Shown here piece by piece: positions 6,879 to 34,265 of a stretch of DNA of 40,063 nucleotides. The notes under the pieces were generated by a model. The model searched no databases. It saw nothing but the letters and a program-made list of their open reading frames with translations, and was not told the origin of the DNA. The DNA comes from Planctomycetes bacterium GWF2_41_51. Its GTDB lineage: Bacteria > Planctomycetota > Phycisphaerae > Sedimentisphaerales > UBA12454. The stretch spans positions 1-40,063 of the forward strand of contig MHXZ01000086.1 of the NCBI GenBank assembly GCA_001825665.1. Direction: 5' to 3'. Made by a program: the position numbers and the translations under genes. The number at the start of each line of letters is the position of its first letter. Within the stretch, counting starts at the first letter, position 1.

Positions 6879-6925
6879 AGAGACAAATTCCGAGCAGGAA
6901 AAAAGCAATTATAAGGGACAATAAA

Positions 6926-7312
6926 ATGTTTAAAGCTAAAACAATAATGACGACAAACGTAATCAGCGTTAAGAGGGATACTGATATTTACGAAGCAATA
7001 AGGACGCTGGTTATGAATAACATTACAGGTCTGCCGGTGGTTAACAACGATATGAGTATCGCGGGGATTATCTCTGAAAAAGATGTATTGAAATTATTGT
7101 ATAACGCGGAGGGGATGGGAAACAAAGTTGAAGATTTTATGACAAAGGGTGTTGTCAGCTTCAACGAAGAGGACAGCCTGATTGATATAACAGAGTGTCT
7201 TATAAAAAATAATTTCAGGAGAGTGCCGATAACGTCGAGCGGGAAACTGGTCGGAATTATCAGCAGGAAAGATATTATCAATTACATTTTAAGATTAAGG
7301 CACAAGGAATAA
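6926..7312 (+). CDS. Two-CBS-domain protein
   Basis: A 128-residue protein made of a tandem CBS pair. The first repeat includes the MTTNVISVKRDTDIYEAIRTL start and GLPVVNN...GIISEKDVLKLL; the second includes MTKGVVSFNEEDSLIDI and RRVPIT...VGIISRKDII. CBS pairs bind adenine nucleotides such as AMP or ATP and act as energy-state sensors. With no attached catalytic domain it probably regulates a partner; its position inside a phosphorelay run suggests an input into that system (inference). AAGGGA precedes the ATG at suitable spacing. Confidence 0.92.
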   Translation: MFKAKTIMTTNVISVKRDTDIYEAIRTLVMNNITGLPVVNNDMSIAGIISEKDVLKLLYNAEGMGNKVEDFMTKGVVSFNEEDSLIDITECLIKNNFRRVPITSSGKLVGIISRKDIINYILRLRHKE

Positions 7313-7338
7313 CGACGATTTCACAGAGGCGAGTTGAG

Positions 7339-9822
7339 ATGAATTTTATGGAAAAGAAAACAATTAAAATTCTGCTTGTAGAGGATGATGCCAGCGATAT
7401 TGTTATAGCGAGGAAATTGCTGGCAGGTAATTCGCACACAATCGAATTTATCGTAGAATCTGCGCGAAGGCTTTCAGAAGCAGTAAAACTGCTCGGCGAG
7501 CAGACATTTGATTTGATACTTCTTGATATGATGCTTCCGGATAGCATGGACATAGAAACGGTTAAAAGCATACATAAGGCAGATCCATATACTCCGATAG
7601 TTGTTTTAACATCGATAGATGATGAAGCAACAAGCCTTTCGGCGATTCAAAACGGCGCATCAGATTATCTGGAAAAAGGTAAATTATCGCGCGATATATT
7701 ATTACGAACAGTCATTTTTGCGATTGAGCGCAAACAGTCGGAAGAAAAAATGCGCATTCAGCAGAAAATGCTTGCGACCGAGCGGAATAATCTTCAGTCT
7801 ATTTTCGATGCATCGAGAGTTTGTATGCTGCTGCTTGACCAGGATGGTAAAGTTGTTCGTGTTAATAAGGCGACTGAGCAGCTGGTAGGCAAAGATAAAA
7901 CGGAAATGCTTATGCATCAGCCGGGAAACAGTTTGTGCTGTATGCACGCGTTGAGTGCGGAAGGGGGCTGCGGCTACGGTGAAGCATGTAAAAGCTGTCA
8001 TATCCGCGAAGCGATTAGTGATATACTTCTCAATGACAAGTCGTTTAGGGAAATAGAAGTCAATCATTGGATTATGATTGATGGGGCAAATCGGGAATTC
8101 TGGTTTTCGGTAAGCGCTGTGCCAATCGAACTTGGCGGGAAACGGCATGTTCTTATTGGTTTACTGGATATCACGGCTCGTAAGATAGCGGAAGCGGCAC
8201 TGAGGCAAAGCGCGACACTGCTGGATAATATTTTTGCGGCGGCACCGATATGTATTATGCTGGTTAAGAAACGCATAATCTATAAAGTTAATGGAAGGAT
8301 TTCTGAAATTTCCGGTTATGATGCGGATGAATTGATTGGGCGTTCGCCGCTGATGCTTTATTCGAATGAAGCTGAATTTGATCGCGTGGGGCGGGAACTA
8401 TTTACAGATTTGGGGCAGTCGAGTAACAGCATAGAATCGCTATGGCGGCGCAAAGACGGTACGCTGATACATGTGCTGCTGCACGCATCAATGCTTGAAC
8501 CAAATAATCCTGACGCCGGCGAAGTAGTTACGGTAAGGGATATCTCCGAACGCAAGCGAAATGAGGATGAGCTGCTGGAAATCAATCGTCATCTGAAAGA
8601 AGCGACAATGCGAGCAAGCGAAATGGCAACGCGGGCAGCAATGGCTGATACGGCAAAGAGCCAGTTTCTTGCGAATATGAGCCATGAAATACGTACGCCT
8701 ATGAATGCGATTATCGGGTTTAGCGACTTGCTGGCGGAAGAAGAAGAGCTTGACGATGATATGAAAGAAGATATTAATATTATCAGGGAGTCGGGCCATA
8801 ATCTTCTTAAGCTTATCAACGATATTCTGGATTTCTCGAAGATTGAGGCCGGTCAGCTTGATATCGATATATCGGATTGTTCGTTGAACGGATTGCTTAA
8901 TTCTATCGAACTGCTGATGCGGCTTAAGGCGAAAGAGAAAAATTTGGATTTCAAAGTCATTAAAAACGCCAATCTTCCTTTGCGGATACACACCGATAAG
9001 GTACGTCTGCGTCAGTGTTTGATAAATCTCATAGGCAATGCTGTAAAATTCACGGAAAGAGGTCATGTGTACGTGAATGTTTTCCTAAAAGAAATTGAAG
9101 ATGTTCCATACATTCAGTTTGATATTGAAGACACGGGTATCGGCATCCCGCTTCATAAACAAGAAATCATATTTAATCCGTTTACGCAGGTAGATGGAAG
9201 TTCAAACCGGCAATATGCGGGTACCGGCCTGGGCCTGTCAATCACGAAACAACTGACAAGACTTCTCGGCGGCGAAATAAAATTGACCAGTGAAGCAGGT
9301 AAAGGCTCTGTGTTCTCGCTTATAATTCCAACATATTCGGGACTTATTGATGAGCAGCTAATGGGTAAAAATCATTGCGAAGAACCATGGGAAAGCAAAA
9401 TACTTAATTTTAAGCATATTAAATTTGCAGGAAATATATTGGTCGCAGAAGATGTTCCGAATAATCAGGCGGTTATCAAGTCTTTTCTGCAAAGGCTGGG
9501 ACTGTGCGTAACGGTGGTAAAAGACGGCAGGGAGGCAGTGGAGAATGCGGCGGCCAACGAATTTGATTTAATATTTATGGATATGATGATGCCGCATATG
9601 AATGGATATCAGGCGGTAAGGAAGCTGAGGCAAAACGGAATAACAACTCCGATAGTAGCCTTAACTGCCAAAGCGATGAAAGGCGACGATCTAAAATGTA
9701 TCGAAGCGGGCTGCGATGATTATCTGGCCAAACCGGTAGACCGTGAAAAATTTCTGCATGTATTAAGAAAATATTTACTAACAAATAAAAAGAAAGAAAA
9801 ACAATTGTGTTTAAATGAATAA
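7339..9822 (+). CDS. Hybrid sensor histidine kinase REC-PAS-PAS-HisKA-HATPase-REC
   Basis: An 827-residue soluble kinase. An N-terminal receiver (8-130) has the acidic pair E15/D16 and phospho-acceptor D63. A first PAS (about 150-282) carries a Cys-rich insert (C200, C201, C211, C217, C220); a second PAS spans about 290-405. The HisKA H-box NMSHEIRTPMNAIIG has H449. HATPase motifs follow: N567, DTGIGIP (598-604) and GTGLGLS (628-634). The C-terminal receiver has D748 and K798. There are no membrane segments, so the signal is intracellular or arrives as phosphate at the first receiver. The next receiver gene starts 13 bases after its stop. It resembles the second large kinase in the N-terminal receiver and in one PAS domain, indicating duplication and reshuffling. 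Confidence 0.93.
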   Translation: MNFMEKKTIKILLVEDDASDIVIARKLLAGNSHTIEFIVESARRLSEAVKLLGEQTFDLILLDMMLPDSMDIETVKSIHKADPYTPIVVLTSIDDEATSLSAIQNGASDYLEKGKLSRDILLRTVIFAIERKQSEEKMRIQQKMLATERNNLQSIFDASRVCMLLLDQDGKVVRVNKATEQLVGKDKTEMLMHQPGNSLCCMHALSAEGGCGYGEACKSCHIREAISDILLNDKSFREIEVNHWIMIDGANREFWFSVSAVPIELGGKRHVLIGLLDITARKIAEAALRQSATLLDNIFAAAPICIMLVKKRIIYKVNGRISEISGYDADELIGRSPLMLYSNEAEFDRVGRELFTDLGQSSNSIESLWRRKDGTLIHVLLHASMLEPNNPDAGEVVTVRDISERKRNEDELLEINRHLKEATMRASEMATRAAMADTAKSQFLANMSHEIRTPMNAIIGFSDLLAEEEELDDDMKEDINIIRESGHNLLKLINDILDFSKIEAGQLDIDISDCSLNGLLNSIELLMRLKAKEKNLDFKVIKNANLPLRIHTDKVRLRQCLINLIGNAVKFTERGHVYVNVFLKEIEDVPYIQFDIEDTGIGIPLHKQEIIFNPFTQVDGSSNRQYAGTGLGLSITKQLTRLLGGEIKLTSEAGKGSVFSLIIPTYSGLIDEQLMGKNHCEEPWESKILNFKHIKFAGNILVAEDVPNNQAVIKSFLQRLGLCVTVVKDGREAVENAAANEFDLIFMDMMMPHMNGYQAVRKLRQNGITTPIVALTAKAMKGDDLKCIEAGCDDYLAKPVDREKFLHVLRKYLLTNKKKEKQLCLNE

Positions 9823-9835
9823 AAGGAGAAATGAA

Positions 9836-10258
9836 ATGAGATTTTTAATTGTAGAGGATAATTTTGCCGCGAGAAGACTTTTGCAAAGATACCTTTCAGG
9901 TTACGGCGTTTGTGATTTAGCTGCTGAAGGAAATGAAGCAATCGAAGCTTTTCGCCAGGCTTTGGATGAAAAGGAACCTTATGATTTGATATGCCTTGAC
10001 ATCATGATGCCGAATATGAACGGACACGAAACGCTCAAACTCATACGTCGAATTGAAGAAGAACGCGGTATTTATGGTCTGGATGGAGTCAAGGTGATAA
10101 TGACAACAGCTTTGGGAGATTCCAAAAATGTTATTGGAGCATTCAGAGAAGGTTGCGAAGCATATATAATCAAACCAATCATTAAGGAAAAACTTCTGAT
10201 GGAAGCAGATAAACTCGGTGTGAAAATTCTATCAAGTGAGGTTATATTAAAAAAATAG
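9836..10258 (+). CDS. Single-domain response regulator (CheY-like)
   Basis: A 140-residue receiver with acidic pocket E7/D8, phospho-acceptor D55 (LICLDIMMPNMNG), T90/T91 and K113. It has no output domain. I choose the ATG at 9836 because AAGGAG (9823-9828) lies 7 bases upstream and the fold begins at MRFLIVEDN; an earlier in-frame ATG at 9815 overlaps the kinase stop and has no ribosome site of its own. It is a likely intermediate in the phosphorelay between the two large kinases, or acts by protein contact. Confidence 0.9.
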   Translation: MRFLIVEDNFAARRLLQRYLSGYGVCDLAAEGNEAIEAFRQALDEKEPYDLICLDIMMPNMNGHETLKLIRRIEEERGIYGLDGVKVIMTTALGDSKNVIGAFREGCEAYIIKPIIKEKLLMEADKLGVKILSSEVILKK

Positions 10259-10270
10259 AAAAAACCGGCG

Positions 10271-13200
10271 ATGAAAACGAAAAGCGATTCTATGAATAAA
10301 AAAACGATAAAAGTTCTATTAGTAGAGGATGATGATGGAGACATTATTTTAACCAGGAGTTTACTTTGCAATTCTCATACTTTTGAATTTGTGGTAGAGT
10401 CAGCTAAAAAACTTTCAGACGCTATAACGCATCTGAATGATCAGGCATTTGATTTGGCGCTGCTTGATATGGGACTTCCTGACAGCAGCGGCATTGATAC
10501 TGTTCAGAGAATCAGACAAACCAATCAACATCTGCCTATTGTTGTTTTAACAGGATTCAATGATGAAGAAACAGGACGTTTAGCGATACAAAACGGTGCA
10601 TCAGATTACCTTATAAAAGATAATTTATCAGGCGACACATTAATACGAACAATCATTTTTTCAATTGAACGCAAACAGGCTGAAAAAGAACGTGAAAAAA
10701 TGCTGTTTTTCCAACTTGGAATAAATTCAATCCAGCAATCGCTTCTTAGAACAATCCCAATTGAAGAAAGACTCCAAAGAGTAACAGATGATATAGTAAA
10801 ATTCTTCAATGTCGATTTTTGCCGAATATGGCTGATTCAAAACGGAGATGCCTGTCAGAATGGATGTGATCACGCTCAAATAAAAGATGGTCCGAATGCC
10901 TGCAATAATCGTGATAAATGTCTGCATCTGGTTTCAAGTTCAGGCAGATATACGAACACAGAAGGAGCATTTTATCGGCGGGTTCCTTTTGGATGTTACA
11001 TGATTGGGATGCTTGCTTCTGATGTGAAATACAAGCATGTTACCAACGATATTCAAAATGATATATATATTCGCGACAGACAGTGGGCAAAAGAAAATGG
11101 ACTTATATCGTACGCGGCATATCAACTGCGGTTTACAGACGGTCAGCCAATGGGGGTAATGGCTCTTTTTTCAAAAAATCCAATAGAGTCTTGTGAAGAT
11201 GCGATGCTCGATGGAATCAGCAGCAATGCAGCGTTGGCTGTTTATCAGTCTCAAACTTCAAAACAATTACAGGAGAGTGAGGAAAAATATCAATCCCTGA
11301 TTAATAATTCTGTTATGGGAGTGGCCGTAATGGACACCAATCACAGAATCATTCAGGTGAATTCAGTATTATCCGAAATGTTTAAAAAACCTGCCAGTGA
11401 ATTTGTGGGCAAATTTTGTTATAAAGAGTTCGAGAAAAGAGATGCAATATGTGAACATTGTCCCGGTGCACGGGCTCTGATTTCCGGCAAAACAGAAGAT
11501 GTGGAAACCCAGGGTATAAGGGATGACGGCAGCCGGTTTTATGTCCGCAACCGTGCGGTTCCATTCTTTGGACATGATGGTGCCGTTAAGGGTTTTATTG
11601 AAATAGTTGAAGATATAGATGTTCGTAAGCGTGCTGAGGAGGAATTACGATGGAAAACGGCACTCCTCGAATCTCAGGTAGAAGCGAATTTAGACGGGGT
11701 ACTGGTTGTTGACAATCAGGGAAAACGAATTTTAATTAACAAACGTCTGATTAATATGTGGAAAGTACCAAACGAAATTGTCGAGAACAAAGACGAAACA
11801 GTTTTAATGAAATATGCAATTGGTTTAACAAACAATCCGCAAGATGTTCTGGAAAAAGTAAAGTATCTTAACTCTCATCCTGACGAGATAAGCAGAGATG
11901 AAATTGAGTATAAAGATGGAACTGTTCTCGACCGGTATTCATCTGCCATTATAGATAAAGAAGGGAAAAATCTCGGAAGAATCTGGACTTTTCGTGATAT
12001 TACAGATCGTAAGCTGGCGGAGACTGCGTTAAGAAAGAACGCTTCTGTAATCAATAGTATTTTTCATGCAGCACCGATTGGCATTGTACTGACAAAAAAA
12101 AGATTCATTTATAAAATGAATGGAATGTTTTCGGAGATATCCGGTTATGCCGAGAACGATCTGATTGGCAAGACTGCACTGGTGCTATACCAGAATATAG
12201 GAGAATATAACAGGGTTGGTTATGAACTTTATAATAATCTTCTGCAGACCGGTCTCAACAGTTCGGAAACAAAATGGCGGCGGAAAGATGGTGCATTGAT
12301 AGATGTGCTGTTGAATGTATCGCCTCTTGATGTTAATGACATAGACGCAGGTGAAATTATTACCGTGCTCGACATAACAGAGCTTAAACTTTCGCAGGAA
12401 GCTATTCTTAGGGAACGTAACAAGGCACAAAGTTATCTGGATGTAGCCGGCGTAATAATGCTCGTACTTAATAGAGATATGACGGTGCATAGAATCAACA
12501 ATAAAGGCTGTGAAATTCTTGGATATGATGAAAATGAAATTATTGGGAAGAACTGGTGTGATACATTTATTCCCCCGCAATATAAAAACGACATTAGAGA
12601 GATGTTTAGCTATATGATGAAAGGTGAAATAAAGAATTGTGAATATCACGAGAATCCGATACTAACCAAAAAGGGAAAACAACGGTTGATCGCGTGGCAT
12701 AATGTTATAATGTATGATGAAGGAAGAAATATAATATCGTTATTAAGTTCAGGTGAGGACATAACCGAACGCAAAGAAGCTGAAGAAGCGATTAAAAAAG
12801 CTTATAAAGAGCTTGAAAAAGCCAACAGCGATATGAAAAATATGCAGGCACAAATAATTCAAAGTGAAAAACTCGCTTCGATCGGGCAATTGGCCGCCGG
12901 TGTCGCGCACGAAATGAATACTCCTGTTGGTTTTGTTGCGTGCAATTTTGAGACTCTCGAAAAGTATCTTGCTAAATTTAAAAAATTAATTGAGATGTAT
13001 AATCGGCTGGCTGATGACATTCCAAATAACAATAGCGCCGCTCTTCTGGAAAAAAATTCGACTATAATACAGGCAGCCATTGATATGAAGATGGATTTTG
13101 TGCTTGACGATATAGATGCATTATTTGAGGAGTCAAAAGAGGGCCTTACCCGAGTTACAACTATAATACAGAACCTAAGGGATTTTTCGAGAATAGACCA

Positions 13201-13735
13201 GGTCGAATCCTTAGATAGTTTCAATATTAATCAAGGCCTTGAATCGACTCTCGCAGTCGCAAGAAATACGATTAAATACCATGCCGATGTGATTACAGAA
13301 TTCGGAGATATTCCGCAGGTATTATGCAATGCCAGCCAGCTTAACCAGGTTTTCCTGAATATTCTTGTAAACGCGGCTCATGCTATCGAATCGCAGCACA
13401 GGGATTCCAAAGGTTCTATCAGAGTTAAAACTTACTCGGATGATGCACAGGTTATATGTGAAATTGAAGATGACGGGCCGGGAATTAAACCTGAAAATAT
13501 AAAGAAGATTTATGATCCATTCTTTACAACTAAACTTGCAGGCAAAGGGACCGGTCTGGGATTATCTGTTTCCTATGATATTATCGTAAATAAGCATAAA
13601 GGCATGCTGCTTGTTGATAGTGTATACGGCAACGGCGCAAAATTCACAATAAAAATTCCGTTAAAACCGGTAAAAGAAAATAACGAAAATTCAAACGAAT
13701 TAATTATAGAAGCCCAAAAGGCTGAAATTAAGTGA
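10271..13735 (+). CDS. Multi-sensor histidine kinase REC-GAF-PASx4-HisKA-HATPase
   Basis: A 1154-residue soluble kinase. The N-terminal receiver (12-135) has D66. A GAF-like sensor (about 150-330) has a Cys-rich loop (C195, C199, H201, C211, C217). Four PAS-type units follow (about 338-455, 462-582, 588-705 and 715-835); the first has CEHCPGA near 394-400. A long helix leads to the H-box GVAHEMNTPVGF with H880, then N1034, EDDGPG with D1068, and GKGTGLGLS near 1091-1099. There is no C-terminal receiver, so phosphate probably passes to the free receivers that follow. No membrane segment. The start could also be the ATG at 10292; neither has a strong ribosome site. The PAS near 588-705 closely resembles the second PAS of the other kinase. 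Confidence 0.92.
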   Translation: MKTKSDSMNKKTIKVLLVEDDDGDIILTRSLLCNSHTFEFVVESAKKLSDAITHLNDQAFDLALLDMGLPDSSGIDTVQRIRQTNQHLPIVVLTGFNDEETGRLAIQNGASDYLIKDNLSGDTLIRTIIFSIERKQAEKEREKMLFFQLGINSIQQSLLRTIPIEERLQRVTDDIVKFFNVDFCRIWLIQNGDACQNGCDHAQIKDGPNACNNRDKCLHLVSSSGRYTNTEGAFYRRVPFGCYMIGMLASDVKYKHVTNDIQNDIYIRDRQWAKENGLISYAAYQLRFTDGQPMGVMALFSKNPIESCEDAMLDGISSNAALAVYQSQTSKQLQESEEKYQSLINNSVMGVAVMDTNHRIIQVNSVLSEMFKKPASEFVGKFCYKEFEKRDAICEHCPGARALISGKTEDVETQGIRDDGSRFYVRNRAVPFFGHDGAVKGFIEIVEDIDVRKRAEEELRWKTALLESQVEANLDGVLVVDNQGKRILINKRLINMWKVPNEIVENKDETVLMKYAIGLTNNPQDVLEKVKYLNSHPDEISRDEIEYKDGTVLDRYSSAIIDKEGKNLGRIWTFRDITDRKLAETALRKNASVINSIFHAAPIGIVLTKKRFIYKMNGMFSEISGYAENDLIGKTALVLYQNIGEYNRVGYELYNNLLQTGLNSSETKWRRKDGALIDVLLNVSPLDVNDIDAGEIITVLDITELKLSQEAILRERNKAQSYLDVAGVIMLVLNRDMTVHRINNKGCEILGYDENEIIGKNWCDTFIPPQYKNDIREMFSYMMKGEIKNCEYHENPILTKKGKQRLIAWHNVIMYDEGRNIISLLSSGEDITERKEAEEAIKKAYKELEKANSDMKNMQAQIIQSEKLASIGQLAAGVAHEMNTPVGFVACNFETLEKYLAKFKKLIEMYNRLADDIPNNNSAALLEKNSTIIQAAIDMKMDFVLDDIDALFEESKEGLTRVTTIIQNLRDFSRIDQVESLDSFNINQGLESTLAVARNTIKYHADVITEFGDIPQVLCNASQLNQVFLNILVNAAHAIESQHRDSKGSIRVKTYSDDAQVICEIEDDGPGIKPENIKKIYDPFFTTKLAGKGTGLGLSVSYDIIVNKHKGMLLVDSVYGNGAKFTIKIPLKPVKENNENSNELIIEAQKAEIK

Positions 13736-23078: not shown

Positions 23079-25349
23079 ATGTCTATAAGGTCGAAACTTA
23101 TAATTGTGTTTCTTGCGGTGGCTTTGACACCAACTGTGTTGATACAATTTGTAACTTATGGAAGATACGAACAATCCTTAAAATCCGCTCAAATCCAGCA
23201 CTTGCAGGATGTGCTTGAATTCAAAGCTTCCCAGCTTGAAACATTTTTCAAGAGTCTTAAATCTGACATTTTGATAACTTGCGACCGTTACGCAATAAGA
23301 CAGAACATCCCCGAAATTGATCGGCTCGCGGATGAACCAAATAATCCTGAATATATAAAAGCCGGAAAAATCATCGATGAACAATTGAAACAGATGCAGG
23401 CTATTTTGAATTTGTCAGATATCATGATTGTAAATCCCAAAGGAACTGTCATTTATGCTATCAGAGCCGCGCATCATACCTTTGATATGTCGATTGCAGA
23501 CCCCGTTCAGTTAGAAGCTATTCGAAAAGGCAGAGAAGATGTCTATTTTTCCGATGTTTACTTCGACAAAGCTCACGACAATCGTTATGAAATGCTTTTA
23601 ACTTCACCGATTAATGACATTAATAATGTTTTTGCAGGTGTGATCGTTTTTGAACTGGATATGGCTGAAGTTTATAATCTTATCCAGGAAAAGACAGCCC
23701 TTGGTGCCACCGGTGAAGCCTTGATAGGTAAAAAAGTCGGCAGTGAAGTCGTTTATCTAAGTCCTCTTAAGTATGATCCCGATGCAGTACTCAAATTTAC
23801 AATAGATGTTGGAGGGGAAATTGCGGTTCCGATACAAAAAGGTGCTGCGGGGCAAACCGGTGCGGGCATTACCTTGGATTACCGAGGCGAAACCGTAATA
23901 AGTGCCTGGAAGTATTTGCCTTCTTTAGATTGGGGAATGGTCGCTAAGATTGACGCCTCAGAGGCGTTTGAAAGCGCTTATGATTTAAAAAAACTTATTT
24001 TAGTAAGAATATTTGTTGTTTTTTTGCTTTCCATACTAATATCTTATTACATTTCTCTCTATATTTCACATCCTATTAAAAAACTTGCACACGGCGCACA
24101 GATAATTGGAAGTGGAGATTTAGACTATAAAGTCGCAATCAATCAGAAAGATGAAATCGGCCGGCTTTCAAGAGTACTCGATAAAATGACATCCAATTTA
24201 AAAAACACTCTCGCTTCACGCGATGATTTGAACAGGGAAATTACAGAACGCAAAAAGGCAGAAGAGACGCTGCGTGAATCGGAAGAAAGATATCGTTCTC
24301 TGTTCGAATCGATTGATGAAGGATTCTGCATAATTCAGGTTATATTTGATAAAAATGAAAAGCCGGTTGATTATCTTTTTCTTTCTGTCAATCCGGCCTT
24401 TGAGAGGCAGACGGGAATCGTTAATGCCGTCGGCAAAAAAATGAAGGATATCGCACCGATGCACGAACAACATTGGTTTGATACTTATGGTAAAGTCGCT
24501 TTAACAGGGGAATCGATACGTTTTGAAAACTCAGCTATGCAGCTTGGTCGTCATTTCGATGTTTATGCGTTTCGCATCGGCCTTCCTGAAGAAAGAAAAG
24601 TCGCGGTTCTTTTCAAGGATATCACAGAACGCAAAAAAGCTGAGCAGAAAATGAAGGAGCTTAATGAAGAGCTTAAACGCTCCAACACAGAGCTTGAGGA
24701 TTTTGCAAATATTATCAGCCACGATTTGCGTGAGCCGCTTCGCGCGGTTACTGCCTTTATGGAACTTTTGAAAATGAGATATAAAGACAAACTTGACGAC
24801 AAGGCAAATGAGTTTATTGATTTTGCTATGAGCGGCGGAAAATCAATGAAAAATATGCTCAACGGCCTGCTTGAATATTCACGGGTCCAAACCGAAGGAG
24901 TAAAATTTTCTGAAGTGGATGTAAATGATATTTTACAGAATGCCATTAACAACCTCCAAATTAAAATAACGGAAACCTCTGCGGAGATTACAAATAATAA
25001 ATTGCCAAAAATAAATTGTGACCCGTCGCAGCTTACCCAATTATTTCAAAACCTGATTCAAAACGCTATTAAATTCAAAGGTAATGATAACCCGAAAATT
25101 CATATCGGCTCAAAAAGACAGGAAAACGGCTGGCTCTTTTATGTTCGTGATAACGGAATTGGTATTGAGCAGAAATATCTGGAAAGAATCTTTTTAATTT
25201 TCCATCGGGTTCATGCCCGGGACAAGTACGAGGGCACTGGTGTGGGTTTGGCTGTGTGCAAAAGAATCGTTGAACGTCATCGAGGCAAAATCTGGGTCGA
25301 ATCCGAACCCGGCAAAGGTGCAACTTTCTTCTTCACTATCCCCGATTAG
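23079..25349 (+). CDS. Membrane sensor histidine kinase (Cache-like sensor, HAMP, PAS, HisKA, HATPase)
   Basis: A 756-residue kinase. TM1 (about 7-27) and TM2 (about 306-329) enclose a 280-residue extracytoplasmic sensor of the double-Cache type (for example GTVIYA and SDVYFD...LTSPI). A HAMP domain (330-382), a PAS domain (about 398-518) and a coiled coil lead to the H-box NIISHDLREPLRAVTAF with H548, then N662, DNGIGI (691-696) and GTGVGLAVCKRI (719-730). The HisKA type is the phytochrome-like one. No receiver or regulator gene is adjacent. The next gene encodes a His/Met-rich exported protein 82 bases downstream, so envelope metal or redox sensing is one possible role (inference). Confidence 0.92.
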   Translation: MSIRSKLIIVFLAVALTPTVLIQFVTYGRYEQSLKSAQIQHLQDVLEFKASQLETFFKSLKSDILITCDRYAIRQNIPEIDRLADEPNNPEYIKAGKIIDEQLKQMQAILNLSDIMIVNPKGTVIYAIRAAHHTFDMSIADPVQLEAIRKGREDVYFSDVYFDKAHDNRYEMLLTSPINDINNVFAGVIVFELDMAEVYNLIQEKTALGATGEALIGKKVGSEVVYLSPLKYDPDAVLKFTIDVGGEIAVPIQKGAAGQTGAGITLDYRGETVISAWKYLPSLDWGMVAKIDASEAFESAYDLKKLILVRIFVVFLLSILISYYISLYISHPIKKLAHGAQIIGSGDLDYKVAINQKDEIGRLSRVLDKMTSNLKNTLASRDDLNREITERKKAEETLRESEERYRSLFESIDEGFCIIQVIFDKNEKPVDYLFLSVNPAFERQTGIVNAVGKKMKDIAPMHEQHWFDTYGKVALTGESIRFENSAMQLGRHFDVYAFRIGLPEERKVAVLFKDITERKKAEQKMKELNEELKRSNTELEDFANIISHDLREPLRAVTAFMELLKMRYKDKLDDKANEFIDFAMSGGKSMKNMLNGLLEYSRVQTEGVKFSEVDVNDILQNAINNLQIKITETSAEITNNKLPKINCDPSQLTQLFQNLIQNAIKFKGNDNPKIHIGSKRQENGWLFYVRDNGIGIEQKYLERIFLIFHRVHARDKYEGTGVGLAVCKRIVERHRGKIWVESEPGKGATFFFTIPD

Positions 25350-25430: not shown

Positions 25431-26771
25431 ATGATTAAAAAGCGAAACAGCAAAACAACTATATTAATAATAATTTTTTCACTTTCTCTTAATCTTTTTG
25501 CTGAGAAGCGAAACGAAGTTTCATATCTTCGCGGCCCATACAATTACGATTTCTTTTATCGCAACAACGAATCCTACGATATGAGTTCCGCAATTCACTT
25601 CGCGCACGGCTACCAGCACGATATACTTGAAAAAACTCCGCTTTCGCGGCATCAGCCAGTCGATGATGAAACTTACGCCAAATATTTGGATTATTTGTAC
25701 AACCCTCCTAAAACAGAGCCGACCATGGAATATTTCGGCCCGTATATTGCGCGTTCGATGTGGCAGTTATACCGTGCAATCGACTGGACACACATGCATC
25801 ACGAGCAGACGTATGACATTATGTCTTATCAGAAGATTCCCTGGCCGGATAAAAAAGAATGGACAGACCGATCTGTTAGATACTATCTTGATAAATTCGA
25901 TATCCCCCGTTCCATTGCTCCGCTCGATATCACTATGCGCCGTGCCGGAGTTATGATGAAGCCATACACAACTTACTTCAGGAATAATTATCCGAAATCC
26001 AATAACTATTTTTATTTCGCTCATTGGTGGCATCCTATTGCTTATGAAGCCCAAATGATTGGAGGCAATGACAGCCAGCAGGTCGCCGCACTTACAGATG
26101 TCGATAAACTCGGCAAAACAATTGTGGTAAATGATCCGCCTTTGAGAATGCTTTTGAGCCGTGAAGTAATGCCCCGATATTCGCGTATGTCGCCTGAATC
26201 CGGAAATATTTTCGATAACCTGCATATGCTTCACGGAATCGCTTATGATATTCTTGCCTACGAAGGCTGGACTATCGAGGAGAAGAAAAAAGAACTTTAT
26301 CGTGTCATTAACGCAATGGCTTACCATCCCGGCGATGAAAAATACGTCCGTAAATTTCAGTTGCCCCATCCTGATGTTGACCCGCGAGTTTATGAACCCT
26401 GGATGAAAACCGTCGAAGGCGATATGAACAGGATGATGCGCGAAATGATGATGGAAATGATGCCGCTGATGATGGATGTCAATTCGATGTCCGCCCAAAT
26501 GCACCAAAAAGCGATGGACCAGTTTATGCTTAAATTGACTCCCGGCATACAGGAGGGAGAATTTGAAGGCTCCATCTCCGATGCGATGAAAAAAGTTATG
26601 CCCAATATGAAGATGGATGAAAAATCAATGTCCCCTGGCGCAACTCCGCAGAAAATGATTGATGCGATGCTGCAAGGCTGGCATGAAAAATATGGTAATC
26701 TGCCGGATGTAGAACCTATCGATATGCAAAACGAACCGTCGCTTCCCCCAAAACAGGAGAACAGGGAATGA
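25431..26771 (+). CDS. Exported His/Met-rich protein with four HxxHxxxY[DE]-like motifs
   Basis: A 446-residue protein of no family I recognise. It has a signal peptide (about 1-24, LFA-EK) and no cysteine. A motif HxxHxxx[YH][DE] occurs four times at 56-64, 121-129, 198-206 and 265-273, spaced 65, 77 and 67 residues; three copies continue with I[LM]. Residues 332-400 are very Met-rich (14 Met within 332-366), likely one or more amphipathic helices. His and Met without Cys suggest metal binding, perhaps copper or iron, in the envelope. GAGG lies upstream of the ATG. It overlaps the next, barrel-encoding gene by 4 bases, so the two products probably act together. Confidence 0.82.
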   Translation: MIKKRNSKTTILIIIFSLSLNLFAEKRNEVSYLRGPYNYDFFYRNNESYDMSSAIHFAHGYQHDILEKTPLSRHQPVDDETYAKYLDYLYNPPKTEPTMEYFGPYIARSMWQLYRAIDWTHMHHEQTYDIMSYQKIPWPDKKEWTDRSVRYYLDKFDIPRSIAPLDITMRRAGVMMKPYTTYFRNNYPKSNNYFYFAHWWHPIAYEAQMIGGNDSQQVAALTDVDKLGKTIVVNDPPLRMLLSREVMPRYSRMSPESGNIFDNLHMLHGIAYDILAYEGWTIEEKKKELYRVINAMAYHPGDEKYVRKFQLPHPDVDPRVYEPWMKTVEGDMNRMMREMMMEMMPLMMDVNSMSAQMHQKAMDQFMLKLTPGIQEGEFEGSISDAMKKVMPNMKMDEKSMSPGATPQKMIDAMLQGWHEKYGNLPDVEPIDMQNEPSLPPKQENRE

Positions 26772-27592
26772 ATCGAAAAATCTCTATTATTGTCATTGCA
26801 AGAAGTACTGATGAGCGAAAGCAAATCAGGACGCCGAAGCAATCTCAGCTTTTAAGATTTTCCTATAGCTTCGTTTTGCTCATGTTAGCCTCATTTTCAA
26901 ATTGTTTCGCCGGCGACCATTTGAATCTCGAAGAAGGATTGCCTGTACAGGTCGAAGATGCTTATCCGACCGCTTACAGAAATCGTGAAGTGCAATTAAT
27001 CACAGGCTGGCAGCACAATGATGACAATACAGATGAATTTCATTTAACTCCCGTTCTCGAATTCGGTGTTTGGCCAAATACCGAACTGGAAATATCTTCG
27101 GATTTTCTTTTCGGCAACGCCGACCGTACCGGCAGCGGAAATCTATCAATCAATGGATTGTATAATTTTAATCAGGAATCACTTTTCTGGCCTGCATTTG
27201 CTATTTCCGGCGGCCTGACTCCTCCCACAGGTGAGGATAACGAGGGCGTTGATACGAACATAAAATTCATTGCGACAAAGACCGTCACCGGCTTGCACAG
27301 AATTCATTTTAATTTGAATTTGAAAAACAACGATGAGCCGAAAGATGAAGAACGGCGAAACAGGTATCTTGCGATTCTCGGCTACAGTCTGCCCTTAAAC
27401 GCAGATACGCTGCTTGTAATGGATTACGTCAGAGAGCAGCAGAGAGAAAAGGAGATGGAGTCAAACATATTTGAAATCGGTGCAAGATATAAATTGACTC
27501 CGCGTACCGTCCTTGCGTTCGGCATCGGTTTCGGCTTCGGCGAAGAATCCCCCGGTTTCCTCACAAACTTCGGTTTCCAATATTCATTCTAA
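26768..27592 (+). CDS. Outer-membrane beta-barrel protein (MetA-pathway/transporter-like)
   Basis: A 274-residue exported protein. After a signal peptide (hydrophobic core about 33-47, cleavage near FAG-DH) come repeated amphipathic strands such as REVQLITGW, TELEISSDFLFG, FWPAFAISGGLTPPTG and TVLAFGIGFGFGE, ending in FGFQYSF with a terminal phenylalanine, the usual outer-membrane barrel signal. The pattern resembles the broad PF13557 group of predicted outer-membrane proteins. The N-terminal extension of about 30 residues is unusual and the true start may lie downstream, but the ATGA overlap with the previous gene supports coupling. A strong terminator follows. Confidence 0.82.
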   Translation: MNRKISIIVIARSTDERKQIRTPKQSQLLRFSYSFVLLMLASFSNCFAGDHLNLEEGLPVQVEDAYPTAYRNREVQLITGWQHNDDNTDEFHLTPVLEFGVWPNTELEISSDFLFGNADRTGSGNLSINGLYNFNQESLFWPAFAISGGLTPPTGEDNEGVDTNIKFIATKTVTGLHRIHFNLNLKNNDEPKDEERRNRYLAILGYSLPLNADTLLVMDYVREQQREKEMESNIFEIGARYKLTPRTVLAFGIGFGFGEESPGFLTNFGFQYSF

Positions 27593-27663: not shown

Positions 27664-27698
27664 CAAAAAAGGCCGATGATTTTGCATCGGCCTTTTTT
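27664..27698. terminator. Bidirectional intrinsic terminator
   Basis: A-tract, GGCCGATG / CATCGGCC stem with a 6-base loop (27679-27684) and T-tract. It serves the barrel operon on the plus strand and pgk on the minus strand. Confidence 0.92.
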
Positions 27699-33713: not shown

Positions 33714-34265
33714 ATGAATCACGATTCGAATAAAAGCTGGTACGAAGCTTCGTTGTTGGAACTGTTGGACTGTATCGAGCAAAGCCATCAAACCGTTCTG
33801 GATAATCTGATTCCCGTGATTCGTCGGAATATAGAAAAAGCTTTAACCGTCGATAAGCAGTACCGCCAAATGCTTACATCGTTAAATGATGTATTTTCTT
33901 TATTCGCCGATGAAATAGAATCCCACTTTGCTCGAGAAGAGGAGCTGCTCGTACCATACATCCGCCAAATTGACTGGTACGACAAAAACAATGGCGATAA
34001 ACCGCAAATTCCCCTAAACAGTTTGACTAATCCAATCAGCCAGATTGAATACGAGCACGATATCACTGAAAACACTTTATTAAAAACTATGCGTATAATT
34101 GCTTCTGATTTTAAAGCTCCTCCGGATGCTTCCAGTTGGCTCAAATCTCTTTATAAAGGTTTGGAAAAACTCGAACAGACAATTCACGAGCACATCCACA
34201 TCGAAAACGATATTTTATTCCCCAAGGCCATTCAAACCGAAATGACCGTCCTCCACGGCAAATAA
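33714..34265 (+). CDS. Hemerythrin HHE-domain protein (RIC/ScdA-like)
   Basis: A 183-residue helical protein with the di-iron ligand set of the RIC/ScdA-type hemerythrin domain: H25 (EQSHQ), H71 and E75 (ESHFAREEELLVPYI), H115 (EYEHD), and H160 with E164 (HEHIHIENDILFP). The known RIC/YtfE/ScdA proteins repair iron-sulfur clusters after nitrosative or oxidative stress. The N-terminal ScdA_N domain is missing, so it may be an oxygen or NO sensor or iron-storage variant. It has its own promoter and no co-directional partner, since the next segment is a broken gene. Confidence 0.85.
   Translation: MNHDSNKSWYEASLLELLDCIEQSHQTVLDNLIPVIRRNIEKALTVDKQYRQMLTSLNDVFSLFADEIESHFAREEELLVPYIRQIDWYDKNNGDKPQIPLNSLTNPISQIEYEHDITENTLLKTMRIIASDFKAPPDASSWLKSLYKGLEKLEQTIHEHIHIENDILFPKAIQTEMTVLHGK

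Follow-up and report, generated by a model that had tools for sequence, protein, structure and literature searches.

A typically cysteine-free His/Met protein family encoded beside an outer-membrane barrel and probably involved in bacterial copper handling

Sequence analysis of a 40,063-nucleotide stretch of DNA from Planctomycetes bacterium GWF2_41_51 (here called the window) revealed a gene for an exported, cysteine-free His/Met protein of 446 amino acids that overlaps the gene for an outer-membrane beta-barrel. We propose, with a probability of roughly 0.6, that the His/Met protein and the barrel form a two-gene cassette for copper handling, with the His/Met protein acting in the periplasm. 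Since the family travels with its outer-membrane partner, mostly as part of copper-resistance clusters, it probably represents a means of coping with toxic copper that has not been described before. Copper-resistance islands hold conserved genes that are annotated merely as hypothetical, and the present family is one of these. If copper is bound as we propose, the family would extend bacterial copper defence by a new component, with a metal site unlike that of any family tested here, and would make the function of one such unnamed gene, present in many copper islands, directly testable.

Sequence features and conserved residues

The open reading frame (25431..26771, plus strand) starts with an ATG preceded by a GAGGAG ribosome-binding site. 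Its first ~24 residues (25431..25502, plus strand), with a hydrophobic stretch following KKR, resemble a signal sequence, in line with the export proposed in a preliminary description of this DNA; the conserved, mature part of the family begins at about E25, with E25 and R27 nearly invariant. The protein has four copies of the motif HxxHxxx[YH][DE] and no more, at residues 56, 121, 198 and 265, and cysteine is lacking entirely, both as first described. We refer to the motifs as A1 (H56-H59-H63-D64; 25596..25622), B1 (H121-H124-Y128-D129; 25791..25817), A2 (H198-H201-Y205-E206; 26022..26048) and B2 (H265-H268-Y272; 26223..26249), all on the plus strand. Among 200,000 shuffles of the mature sequence, 198,517 contained no motif, 1,474 contained one and nine contained two, while three or four were never obtained. 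Furthermore, residues 332 to 400 (26424..26630, plus strand) harbor 19 methionines, a number reached within 69 residues in none of 20,000 shuffles. The initial observation of four motifs plus an extreme methionine cluster is therefore far beyond chance.

Conservation of the motif histidines among homologues had been named beforehand as a critical test. In a core alignment of 19 family members, three of them fetched later, H56, H59, H63, D64, H121, H124, Y128, D129, H198, H201, Y205, E206, H265, H268 and Y272 are invariant, so that all eight motif histidines (two per motif) are fixed in the close family. The acidic residue previously assigned to each motif holds for D64, D129 and E206, but D273 is replaced by serine in the Methylobacterium and Jannaschia rows shown. 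A further histidine, H123, falls just short of invariance. Toward the C terminus, M332, M336, M339, M343, M347, M393, M409, M413 and M432 are invariant, the first five of which form a stripe on a predicted helix (residues 331 to 347). The absence of cysteine is typical of the family, though not strict, as members from three loci (L007, L008 and L027) have a cysteine in the mature part.

A distant relative, from Gemmatirosa, shows 24% identity and reads DxxHxxxYE, HxxHxxxYD, HxxQxxxYE and HxxHxxxSD at the four motifs. It thus retains six of the eight motif histidines and all four acidic positions, with H56 replaced by aspartate, H201 by glutamine and Y272 by serine. This copy (L029, ~6903-8206) has no in-frame start; a start resembling that of a signal peptide is present in a different frame, which probably reflects a sequencing error or a disrupted gene. 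Also, the copy of Hymenobacter sp. UV11 (L006, 5938-7278) is divided between two frames.

The four motifs derive from a duplicated two-motif unit in the order A-B-A-B. In the Gemmatirosa protein, a profile of residues 170 to 310 matched each of the two halves (domain E values of 3.3e-12 and 4.4e-17), and with the same profile the first half of every family member outscored all shuffled copies. The alignment places A1 on A2 and B1 on B2, so that the spacings of 65, 77 and 67 residues reflect the duplicated unit. Direct comparison of the two halves by HHalign gave a weak match (10.8% probability, E value of 0.0029). Of the four equivalent units envisaged earlier, the four motifs remain, but the profile of the second half and the Gemmatirosa relative argue for a duplicated pair.

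Predicted structure

AlphaFold, supplied with a 23-row alignment, predicted an all-helical protein (pLDDT of 79, pTM of 0.81), in which each motif lies inside its own long helix (residues 46-68, 108-132, 188-211 and 255-276), and each of these helices is followed by a second one. The His, His and Tyr or His of each motif, at i, i+3 and i+7, are expected to share one helix face, as residues at bundle-core positions do, and we infer that the motif histidines converge in three dimensions. Because of this a-d-a pattern, the most likely arrangement of the four long helices is a bundle whose histidine-lined core would hold several copper ions. The methionine-rich C-terminal helix most likely takes up Cu(I) in the periplasm and hands it over to this core. 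The barrel most likely docks to the protein, either to export copper from the periplasm or to anchor the protein to the outer membrane.

No convincing fold match in the PDB was obtained with Foldseek or VIA-align. The best Foldseek hit for the full model had an E value of 1.5, and VIA-align yielded a best Z score of 3.7 (rmsd of 5.0 over 140 residues) for the full model and of 4.4 for the core alone, both in the range of unrelated helical proteins. The latter search carries little weight, since the core folded on its own gave a poorer model (pLDDT of 62) than the full protein (79). Searches of Pfam, NCBIfam and PDB sequences with the window protein as well as with a profile of 23 family members returned only chance-level matches, in agreement with the earlier statement that no known family has this layout. 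In the literature, we recognised no paper describing the family; in one on the copper islands of Methylorubrum extorquens, hypothetical proteins appear solely in the legend of a figure (PMC9948745). We tentatively consider, as a less than even possibility, that this is a new family and perhaps a new fold, in which a duplicated helical unit forms a cysteine-free, histidine-rich polynuclear copper site in the periplasm that is fed by a methionine helix and coupled to a barrel. If so, bacteria would have yet another answer to copper in the periplasm, in addition to multicopper oxidases and cysteine-based storage proteins.

Distribution of the family

Relatives with 50 to 65% identity, most of them nearly full-length, were found across phyla in Methylobacter, Desulfobacteraceae, another deltaproteobacterium, Hymenobacter, Chitinispirillaceae, Jannaschia, Methylobacterium/Methylorubrum and Bacteriovoracaceae. 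Copies annotated as "hypothetical protein" are also carried by Methylobacterium plasmids. Within 59 genomes of the genus, family and order of the window, no second copy of the gene was detected; among 392 genomes of its phylum two others have it, and in the genus of G421 it is present in one of five genomes. Viral contigs yielded no relative. This patchy spread, together with identity that stays high between phyla, suggests that the gene has been transferred horizontally between distant bacteria, and a patchy, partly plasmid-borne distribution is as expected of a transferable resistance trait. The export signals, as read from the sequences, appear to be of the Sec, twin-arginine or lipoprotein type, with twin-arginine signals in the Methylobacterium and Jannaschia members and lipobox signals in those of Hymenobacter. 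The family combines cross-phylum identities of 50 to 65% with a constant outer-membrane partner, eight fixed histidines and a methionine stripe.

The barrel partner

The downstream gene (26768..27592, plus strand) overlaps the His/Met gene by four bases and encodes a predicted outer-membrane beta-barrel of 274 amino acids matching PF13557 (Phenol_MetA_deg; E value of 9.9e-8). Its score of 32.8 bits exceeds the curated cut-off of 22; among the barrels of other loci, that of L002 reached 32.0 and that of L004 fell just below, at 21.8. At E values up to 10, the Pfam search of the window barrel returned PF13557 and three weak other matches, with no CopB among them. At each of the 30 loci examined and in the window, a barrel homologue adjoins the His/Met gene. 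The Gemmatirosa homologue is found on the opposite side of the His/Met gene, and therefore the pairing is not merely inherited gene order.

Copper genes around the family

Neighbourhoods were analyzed in fetched flanks of about 6 to 10 kb, and lineages were tallied once each. Of 12 lineages, 9 have at least one copper marker in these flanks, namely, Methylobacter, the SURF_4 Desulfobacteraceae, Hymenobacter, Chitinispirillaceae, Jannaschia, Methylobacterium, Bacteriovoracaceae, G222 and G421. The three marker-free lineages are the window, Gemmatirosa and the HGW-15 deltaproteobacterium, whose flank has nothing beyond genes for an outer-membrane efflux-like protein and an RND fragment. Neither near the His/Met gene of the window nor beside the Gemmatirosa copy did we detect a copper gene; the genome of the window encodes a CPC/MSLSS ATPase on another contig. 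These findings, like the replaced motif histidines of the Gemmatirosa copy, speak against a role in copper handling. Several Methylobacterium loci are near-identical, so the loci are not all independent.

CPC together with MxxSS is the signature of Cu(I)-ATPases. ATPases with CPC are encoded in eight loci of Methylobacter, Hymenobacter, Chitinispirillaceae and Methylobacterium/Methylorubrum, in seven of which MxxSS is readable. An ATPase match was found in the Jannaschia flank and the C-terminal piece of an ATPase in that of G421. Other neighbours include genes encoding HMBD and YHS domains, RND efflux genes, DUF305 genes and, in Hymenobacter and Bacteriovoracaceae, multicopper oxidase genes. 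Csp-like DUF326 genes were detected by tblastn in 14 of the 30 loci (L003, L005, L009, L011-L013, L015, L017, L019-L022, L024 and L032). As they recur near the family, a cysteine-based copper store and the exported His/Met protein may act as partners. Islands of the same kind, with Cu-ATPases, CusAB and a Cys-rich four-helical protein, are described for M. extorquens AM1 (PMC9948745).

The preliminary description had left the metal open between copper, iron and heme. Gene neighbourhoods single out copper, while nothing in favour of heme or iron was found. A heme role was set aside, as the window protein has no cysteine, and hence no CxxCH, and no cytochrome genes recur nearby; likewise, an iron role was set aside given that no iron genes recur nearby.

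Relation to known copper systems and alternative roles

The arrangement resembles PcoA-PcoB and CopA-CopB, in which an exported (often twin-arginine), methionine-rich protein in a copper context is also encoded beside an outer-membrane barrel; export of PcoA in folded form and the role of PcoB have been described (PMC7558416). However, the window protein is all-helical in the model and lacks Cu-oxidase domains, and its barrel partner matches PF13557 rather than the CopB model. None of 23 family members matched the Cu-oxidase models PF00394, PF07731 and PF07732 at E values up to 0.1; the search returned only two unrelated matches at chance level.

This bears on the alternative that the protein is a copper enzyme, e.g., a cuprous oxidase with a polynuclear, histidine-ligated copper site, that does the job of PcoA/CopA beside the barrel. 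The twin-arginine export of many members, the methionine-rich segment, the paired barrel and the copper islands all parallel PcoA-PcoB, and the invariant tyrosine beside the histidines could serve redox chemistry. Yet the multicopper-oxidase domain is absent, and the Hymenobacter and Bacteriovoracaceae loci encode a genuine multicopper oxidase as well, so that a simple replacement does not apply there. We regard an enzymatic role as unlikely and rank storage or sequestration ahead of it for the putative copper protein.

Csp1 and Csp3 are copper storage proteins of the DUF326 type, built as a four-helix bundle lined by cysteines. The present family resembles them in being helical, with putative ligands on one face of four helices, and in being often encoded near a Csp-like gene. 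In contrast to Csp1/Csp3, the putative ligands are histidine, tyrosine and acidic residues without cysteine, the protein is about three times as long, and there is no sequence match: none of the 23 family members matched PF03860 (DUF326), and the window protein contains no cysteine. Csp1 is Tat-exported (PMC7558416). CopM/DUF305 and the PcoE/SilE sponges are likewise exported His/Met-rich proteins of copper islands, but the present protein is much longer and has a fixed motif layout; moreover, DUF305 genes coexist with the family in the same loci, and no member matched PF03713 (DUF305/CopM). Since the defining models are not matched, the window protein is a member of neither PcoA-PcoB nor Csp1, to which it would be analogous in function.

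A metallochaperone or assembly factor delivering copper to a cuproenzyme, instead of a detoxification protein, would suit the several methylotrophic hosts, which have many periplasmic metalloenzymes, but is very unlikely, as the neighbours are efflux, storage and oxidase genes rather than structural genes of cuproenzymes and the patchy, partly plasmid-borne spread suits resistance. It is similarly improbable that another metal (silver, zinc, manganese or iron) is bound and that copper genes are neighbours through the clustering of metal-resistance genes: silver and copper systems overlap, and an ATPase with CPH instead of CPC adjoins the gene in L004 and L032, but the CPC ATPases, DUF326 and the methionine stripe all favour Cu(I)/Ag(I), and we saw no recurring gene specific to zinc or iron. 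Copper sequestration or processing in the periplasm by the His/Met protein, together with its barrel, remains our preferred reading.

Other genes in the window and at family loci

A terminator-like hairpin of 14 pairs (27665..27698, unstranded; consensus match only) lies between the operon and a converging PGK gene. Upstream, at a distance of 81 bases, a sensor histidine kinase with dCache, HAMP, PAS, HisKA and HATPase domains is encoded (23079..25349, plus strand). Its link to the operon is uncertain, and a function as dedicated sensor was set aside because the kinase gene does not accompany the family consistently. In several Methylobacterium loci (L011, 8280-9014; L014; L019; L023), the gene pair is followed by a gene for a DUF4396 membrane protein (PF14342). 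About 7 kb downstream, the window encodes a hemerythrin-domain protein (33714-34265, plus strand; PF01814, E value of 3.4e-12), likewise a helical His/acid metal protein, with no sign of a link. Two very large tandem PAS-containing sensor kinases, followed by small response-regulator-like open reading frames, are encoded about 12 kb upstream (7339-13735).
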